From positions 8,198,822-8,262,821 of the forward strand of contig OY997655.1 in the NCBI GenBank assembly GCA_963921795.1: a stretch of 64,000 nt of DNA, read 5' to 3'. The notes under the pieces were generated by a model, which made no database searches, was not told the DNA's origin, and was given only the letters and a program-made list of their open reading frames with translations. Positions within the stretch are counted from its first letter, which is position 1. Each line of letters opens with the position of its first letter. Below are positions 1-11,494 of this stretch, in pieces. This DNA is from Nannobrachium achirus. Lineage: Eukaryota > Chordata > Actinopteri > Myctophiformes > Myctophidae. Made by a program: the position numbers and the translations under genes.

Positions 1-541
1 GTGACAGTGGTGGACTCACCAGGCTGGCAGTCTGACAGTCCACTACAGGACACCTCAGAGATGGACAAACTGGAGATCCAGAACAGTGTGTCTCTCTGTC
101 CTCCTGGACCACATGCTGTTCTTCTGGCGGTTCCTCTTGATAGAGCATTCACCAAAGCACAGAGAGTAGCATTAGAGGAACACATGTCACTTCATCCAGA
201 GAGTGTGTGGAGTTACTCTATGATACTGTTCACCTGTGGAGACCTGCTGGGAGACAGAAGCATTGAGGAGCACATTGAGGCTGAAGGTGAAGACCTCCTC
301 TGGCTTGTTGACAAATGTGGAAACAGGTATCATGTCCTCAACAACCAGAAGACAGATGTCACTCAGGTCACACAGCTTCTGGAGAAGGTAGAGGACATGG
401 TGTCAGGAAACACAGGTGGACACTATGAAGATGATGGAGATGAGAAGATGTCAGAGAGGAAGAGGAACATCCAGGAACGTGTCCACACATTCATGACCAA
501 GGCACACAGACAAAGAACTGCTCTGAAAGCTCTGTTTGAAG
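1..541 (+). CDS. exon 1 (partial): first AIG1/GIMAP GTPase domain
   Basis: The reading frame is open from base 1, so the exon starts upstream and the P-loop (G1) is not in view. Visible GTPase motifs: G3 as DSPGW at residues 5-9 and G4 as LFTCGD at about residues 76-81 (the T-x-x-D form used by AIG1 proteins). Between them is the conserved GIMAP segment around CPPGPHAVLL. After G4 come the GIMAP-type helices (WLVDKCGNRYHVLNN, then an acidic and basic helix). The domain looks competent as far as it can be seen. The donor is GAAG|GTGATG at 541/542, phase 1. The next bases are GATGATG and a long TG tract, so without splicing the frame runs into a meaningless Val-Cys repeat. The G of residue 181 is shared with exon 2. 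Confidence 0.88.

Positions 542-11494: not shown

Follow-up and report, generated by a model that had tools for sequence, protein, structure and literature searches.

NLRP1 and CARD8 are among the known systems closest to the gene reported here. According to excerpts of PMC7794386, their self-cleaved FIIND holds the UPA-CARD part until degradation of the N-terminal part of the protein, and UPA makes CARD filaments form at a lower threshold; the release mechanism is also treated in parts of PMC3210808. In the latter, D'Osualdo et al. name Ser, Thr, or Cys as the residue whose attack initiates cleavages of this kind, and describe both histidines as important in CARD8. Zebrafish NLRP1 is described as signalling via ASC (passages of PMC9978379). 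The FIIND-CARD combination is also said, in passages of PMC6721725 and PMC4932187, to stand behind an immune GTPase head in zebrafish Gbp1, Gbp3, and Gbp4. The joining of a GTPase defence family to a FIIND-CARD tail therefore has a precedent.

The AIG1 domain is the feature that the window gene has in common with the GIMAP family (human GIMAP1, 2, 4, and 7), of which GIMAP8 is a multi-domain member. To our knowledge, little is known about the ligands and signalling routes of GIMAPs. A fish may have over a hundred GIMAP genes, as in zebrafish (excerpt of PMC7053062). The same paper presents a predicted Biomphalaria protein, Bg8770-RB (DD-CARD, AIG1, and coiled coil), that also pairs a CARD with AIG1; its CARD is N-terminal, unlike that of the window gene, and the term FIIND occurs 0 times in that paper. 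Fusions of TRADD-N to AIG and, separately, to FIIND are described in passages of PMC8195603. In the portions of open-licence PMC that were searched, we found no paper describing AIG1/GIMAP together with FIIND-CARD, although automatic annotation may exist, and none that brings FIIND, AIG1, and fish together. FIIND-CARD sensors with an immune GTPase head are thus already known from the zebrafish GBPs; new here are the GIMAP head, the pseudo-GTPase, the array, and the variable pocket.

The window, i.e., the whole 64,000-nucleotide stretch analysed, is C18:8198822-8262821 in the 1.66-Gb, 564-contig genome of Nannobrachium achirus. A preliminary description had proposed eleven exons encoding two AIG1 domains, a linker, FIIND, repeats, and a CARD. 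All eleven exons are present on the plus strand, the ten introns are GT-AG, and the junction phases read 1,0,1,0,1,0,1,0,1,0. The joined cDNA, inspected for the internal stops that would have spoken against this chain, translates into 1,126 residues with the terminal stop only. Pfam assigns AIG1, AIG1, FIIND, UPA, and CARD to it, in this order; the number of AIG1 domains in the gene has to be corrected from two to three. An extension to the left of the window, suggested for locating the missing P-loop exon, recovered the P-loop and two more exons. The full model consequently comprises 13 exons and 1,423 residues in the order AIG1-AIG1-pseudoAIG1-linker-FIIND-UPA-CARD. It starts with an ATG exon (MSSGTSASIRG; window -3668 to -3638), kept in the six copies aligned, and a complete first AIG1 exon (-3543 to -2842), wholly left of the window. 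The second AIG1 exon begins at -157, so that its P-loop (GEHDSGKSS) falls just left of the window and its 3' part, with DSPGW, FTCGD, and NN, occupies positions 1..541. The third AIG1 domain is split between 3060..3178, which holds the degenerate P-loop (GGKQNERSRAG), and 3838..4480, which carries the remainder and the start of the linker. The linker continues through exons of the MSGG...QAD type (4736..4797, with an in-frame length change between copies) and the SVLKDPVESTLPAVRRRNS type (4899..4977), a duplicate of the MSGG type (5425..5492), a duplicate of the SVVKDPVES type (5603..5681), an MSGE type (6331..6392), an exon LFERLTG...EEWKKREEEVIERM (6654..6786) related to the end of 3838-4480, and a last exon, k10 (7604..7740). 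The k10 exon has a phase 0 donor, and reading through it adds 10 residues before a stop. The terminal exon (10037..11494) encodes the ZU5-like FIIND, UPA, 21-residue repeats, the CARD, and the stop. No Pfam family was assigned to exons 3060-3178, 6654-6786, and 7604-7740. A tblastn search of the window with the eleven-exon model (E up to 0.01) matched only 1-11491 and gave no second gene copy. GIMAP-type AIG1 domains and a FIIND-CARD tail thus appear to be joined in one predicted gene.

All three AIG1 domains match PF04548 over the curated cut-offs (9.9e-29, 1.5e-39, and 1e-18 for the first, second, and third domain, respectively), and the window part of the second AIG1 exon (1-541) alone gives 5.3e-27. 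The best solved relatives are GIMAP4 for exon 1-541 (3lxx, 6.3e-17) and GIMAP1 and GIMAP2 for exon 3838-4480 (2.7e-9 and 3.1e-9). We use the names P-loop, DTPG(W), and FTxGD for what we take to be the corresponding motifs of AIG1 domains. The second AIG1 domain has GEHDSGKSS, DSPGW, and FTCGD at these places, and the first has a lengthened P-loop and FTVAD. The third reads GGKQNERSRAG at the place of the P-loop, ICPDW for DTPGW, and FMCGFWLGG for FTxGD, and its P-loop remnant is degenerate in all four copies aligned (A, B, E, and F). The domain encoded by 3060-3178 and 3838-4480 looks like a pseudo-GTPase, judged by its motifs. The window gene differs from the GIMAP family in this third domain without P-loop, DTPG, and FTxGD, and in the added C-terminal FIIND-CARD tail. 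It differs from the zebrafish GBPs in having a head of three AIG1/GIMAP domains (PF04548), one of them a putative pseudo-GTPase; the pieces scanned by Pfam contain no GBP domain. Nor did Pfam match NACHT or LRR in the exons scanned, which were taken one by one outside 4736-6392. Being symmetric (phase 1-1), the first two AIG1 exons can come and go with the frame intact; neighbour D has neither the second nor the third AIG1 domain, yet its frame reads through.

In the terminal exon, the ZU5-like FIIND (PF13553; 10205..10582, 4.1e-40), UPA (PF23679, UPA-FIIND; 10598..10975, 1.2e-21), and the CARD (PF00619; 11240..11482, 4.6e-7) all score above the curated Pfam cut-offs, and the CARD matches those of ICEBERG and caspase-1. 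Four in-frame repeats of 63 nucleotides (21 residues) lie between UPA and CARD (10987..11237), and the number of such units ranges from 0 to 4 in ten copies. FIIND, UPA, CARD, and the catalytic histidine are common to the window gene and to NLRP1 and CARD8, whereas the long duplicated linker and the repeats between UPA and CARD set it apart, as does a Cys nucleophile preceded by Leu. A structure prediction of the terminal exon from the single sequence was uninformative (mean pLDDT 32.6, pTM 0.23). No relatives of this exon were found in viral contigs, in which 12 stretches matched by pattern only.

For the chemistry of the cleavage site, 22 of the 88 listed FIIND places were aligned: the ten nearest to the window copy, plus a selection of twelve from the tiers below. 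The histidine at 10469..10471, aligned with that of the MAHF motif in human NLRP1, is kept in 22 of 22 copies; we presume the human residue to be H1186. Both histidines are preserved in the window copy, whose LPH and VVH stand opposite LPH and MAH in the alignment with human NLRP1. At the nucleophile position, the window copy has a Cys codon (TKL|CCFG; 10553..10555), and neighbours A and D have Ser (TRL|SLFG). Over the alignment, the position is Ser in 20 copies, Thr in one, and Cys in the window copy only, preceded by Leu or Phe. Cys is therefore ruled out as a general feature of this site, and the window copy (TKL|C) does not match the SF/S cleavage motif with its Ser nucleophile. The single Thr (GF|T, 1/22) occurs in L041 (C21:6568320-6569830). 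The retention of the histidine and of a Ser, Thr, or Cys nucleophile makes a release mechanism like that of NLRP1 and CARD8 plausible. Going by these residues, the FIIND family is likely competent for cleavage, and for the window copy such competence is plausible. This natural Ser/Thr/Cys series offers a ready-made test of FIIND cleavage chemistry.

The segments of the window copy resemble different relatives. Its ZU5 part is 91-94% like that of the nine other close copies. The UPA part is 90% and 87% like L035 and L039, respectively, and 70-75% like the other seven. The CARD is closest to L033, L034, and L037 (92%, 88%, and 86%), followed by L035, L036, and L038 (76-82%) and by A, D, and L039 (73%). 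By these identities, the window copy has a mosaic make-up, its segments being nearest to different copies.

The window gene (E) is one of seven units, A to G, all on the plus strand within C18:8039322-8342821. Every exon is present in A and E; D lacks two AIG1 domains, G has only the ATG and first AIG1 exons, and tblastn found no FIIND-CARD exon in B, C, or F. A tail on all neighbours is thus ruled out. Of these tail-less units (C18:8049322-8342821), B is open as far as k10 (942 codons) and keeps the k10 donor. In C, the match to the second AIG1 is truncated and the aligned end of k10 lacks a GT; F has a stop inside its k10-like exon. Complete open fused models were obtained for A (1,383 residues), D (872), and E (1,423). 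In comparisons confined to exons and to introns below 3 kb that are adjacent in both copies, indels in exons were multiples of three in 12/12, 10/10, and 6/6 cases for E-A, E-D, and A-D, and those in introns in 13/48, 9/26, and 9/27, that is, 28/28 against 31/101 over three pairs that are not independent. E and A differ at 209 exon positions; in a simulation with 200 random substitutions, the frame stayed stop-free in 4 of 2,000 runs. The dN/dS values between copies run from 0.40 (FIIND, E-D) to 1.18 and are often near 1, those of E-A being 1.18 for the linker, 1.02 for FIIND, and 1.01 for the CARD, so that purifying selection is not strongly shown. Such values are as expected of young, fast-changing, or relaxed copies. 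Since dN/dS does not serve as proof of constraint, the claim that the exons are coding rests on the frames.

Beyond the array, at least 88 FIIND-bearing places match the terminal exon (88 of 638 candidates scored; CARD-only and UPA-only pieces, mostly from the same places, were set aside). They were compared with the best 112 pseudo-AIG1 places (down to C20:43578171) of 150 scored among 795 candidates. The pseudo-AIG1 matches left out had internal stops, were fragments or 65-94% partial matches, or had 40-48% identity, the last group including exons of the second-AIG1 type; both counts are lower bounds. Of the 88 FIIND exons listed, 11 are preceded by a pseudo-AIG1 exon of their own strand at a distance of up to 20 kb, and none has such an exon in any other arrangement. 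When the pseudo-AIG1 places were rotated 2,000 times, such pairs numbered 0.17 on average and 8 at most. The ten closest copies among the FIIND places listed, nine on C18 at 6.6-8.2 Mb and one on C13, form a clade (100/100 support in the comparison of 22 sequences). In the C18 cluster, a pseudo-AIG1 exon precedes seven of the nine tail exons by 5.3-8.0 kb; local shuffling expects 0.53 and reached seven in 0 of 20,000 trials, for a distance window of 5.0-8.5 kb chosen after the distances were known. The remaining two are C18:7261586 and unit D, where the first AIG1 is present and the pseudo-AIG1 exon absent. Conversely, at least 30 pseudo-AIG1 places lie on C18 at 6.5-8.45 Mb, with a listed FIIND exon within 20 kb downstream in seven, and most copies there therefore appear tail-less. 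Three of the 11 FIIND exons, on C9, C13, and C18 (10.5 Mb), are more divergent (68-71% identity); they, too, follow a same-strand pseudo-AIG1 exon, at 4-11 kb, and the two exons are 18.4 kb apart in the C13:51.77 Mb copy; these four were paired by position, not by splice frame. The fused architecture put forward in the preliminary description thus recurs in two more complete models of the array and in the same-strand pairing of its modules elsewhere in the genome. The eight tail exons scanned by Pfam among the 19 exons L033-L051 (L033, L034, L035, L037, L039, L041, L043, and L051) all contain FIIND, UPA, and CARD.

Other features of these families were seen in passing. AIG1, like FIIND, is greatly expanded genome-wide, with at least 151 matches (150 of 781 candidates scored). 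The FIIND-rich regions C21 5.3-8.3 Mb and C23 4.6-10.5 Mb hold none of the 112 listed pseudo-AIG1 places. At C21:7459368-7462214, on the minus strand, a single open frame of 1,283 codons contains two FIIND-CARD matches, as if the unit had been doubled.

Within the head, residue differences among copies are concentrated at G1, switch I, after G3, G4, and G5. The mean diversity is 0.173 in the pocket against 0.051 elsewhere in the first AIG1 domain (seven copies; 7/234 circular shifts reach this contrast) and 0.181 against 0.041 in the second (four copies; 1/234). Exon 3838-4480 gave 0.180 against 0.111, which is not significant (five copies; 38/217), and exon 3060-3178 no pocket contrast (0.167 against 0.159; four copies, 23/38). 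Shifted jointly, 5 of 20,000 trials reach the observed value, and pN/pS pooled over all pairs is 1.23 in the pocket loops and 0.70 elsewhere. The pocket windows follow the GTPase boxes and were set once the alignments had been seen; because of this, and of sequence exchange between copies, we regard the clustering as a lead. Clustering in two of three domains fits a role of the GIMAP head as the detecting part, as we infer. We would go further only tentatively, to a reading we consider unlikely as it stands: an expanding tandem repertoire of GIMAP-headed inflammasome sensors, in which variable pocket loops of GTPase and pseudo-GTPase domains would form the recognition surface, FIIND, UPA, and CARD would be exchanged, and tail-less copies would act as co-sensors or decoys. 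If true, this would parallel the diversified NLR arrays, built on GIMAPs.

The window gene is most likely a GIMAP-headed relative of NLRP1 and CARD8, comparable to the zebrafish GBP-FIIND-CARD proteins. On balance, we favour a single gene encoding a 1,423-residue sensor with two P-loop AIG1 domains, a pseudo-GTPase AIG1, a duplicated linker, and FIIND-UPA-CARD, with release as in NLRP1 and CARD8. The same exons might instead belong to two adjacent genes that were duplicated as a pair: a GIMAP gene with three AIG1 domains, whose end lies at or beyond 7604-7740, and a FIIND-CARD gene resembling CARD8, whose first exon would be non-coding. The coding part of the latter could start at the Met at residue 9 of 10037-11494, which is kept in 10/10 close copies (HGEMEEH). 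The heads of the tail-less B and F are open, the short read-through of k10 is followed by ATTAAA at 7774, and a pair duplicated as a unit would also preserve its spacing. We nevertheless see this division as rather improbable, since the start of the tail exon, NFLCFQ|GT[VI]P, is found in 10/10 close copies in a phase that matches the k10 donor (the acceptor was verified as DNA in A, D, and E), and the donor is present in 3/3 tailed copies modelled (A, D, and E). Among the tail-less copies, B keeps this donor, the corresponding GT is missing from C, and the k10-like exon of F contains a stop of its own; the ATTAAA motif recurs after the k8 exon and, in changed form, after k4; and the three divergent FIIND exons also have their same-strand pseudo-AIG1 exons upstream. 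A decaying or non-functional array copy, open by recent duplication and with FIIND cutting lost through the change from Ser to Cys after a Leu, would agree with dN/dS near 1 in several segments, with a Cys unique among the 22 copies, and with the mosaic make-up. This we hold to be very improbable: the frame is kept in every exon indel, unlike in introns, stops should have arisen in the meantime, Leu often precedes the nucleophile among the 22 copies, and Cys is named as a nucleophile of autoproteolytic proteins in the relevant part of PMC3210808.

The mode of signalling is a separate matter, and our estimates overlap and need not sum to one, as two genes or a decayed copy would fit several modes. 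Under the single-gene reading, FIIND would cut itself before its nucleophile, Cys in the window copy and Ser or Thr in others, and the two pieces would remain bound. An intruder would then engage, assemble, or destroy the GIMAP head, i.e., the GTPase module with its copy-variable pocket loops. With the head lost, UPA-CARD would be freed to form filaments and recruit ASC and an inflammatory caspase, by analogy with NLRP1 and CARD8, and tail-less array copies may join assemblies of tailed ones as partners or regulators. Alternatively, the tail might signal without cleavage, FIIND only oligomerising and the GIMAP head gathering CARDs directly, as suggested for zebrafish Gbp4, which is said to depend crucially on its GTPase activity to activate caspy and to need its CARD to join ASC (excerpts of PMC9978379 and PMC4932187). 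We rate such direct assembly as quite improbable: a histidine in 22/22 copies and a Ser, Thr, or Cys in 22/22 are hard to explain if no cleavage occurs, and Gbp4 without GTPase activity still joined ASC complexes, according to part of PMC4932187.

A GIMAP wired to FIIND-CARD would, if real, have a direct output in caspase activation and cell death, and GIMAP sensing would become testable by an ASC-speck assay. The FIIND-CARD tail would then be a reusable release module behind GBP, GIMAP, and NACHT-LRR heads.

As for the rest of the window, Rfam at gathering thresholds and ARAGORN gave no match, and Pfam, applied to 10 of the 247 other open reading frames, yielded no more than a reverse transcriptase and, below the cut-off, an integrase. 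The reverse transcriptase (PF00078, 8.8e-26) lies at 20736-22199 on the plus strand and probably belongs to a LINE-like element. Two long adjacent open frames of 1,281 and 652 codons occupy 40355-46140 on the minus strand, and the 1,281-codon frame matches a phage integrase at 1.4e-4, below the cut-off, perhaps as part of a tyrosine-recombinase element. Within 46631-48452, a similar coding-like stretch (LHDIALSIDIGQ...) occurs on both strands, in the open reading frames 46631-47038 (plus) and 47892-48452 (minus).
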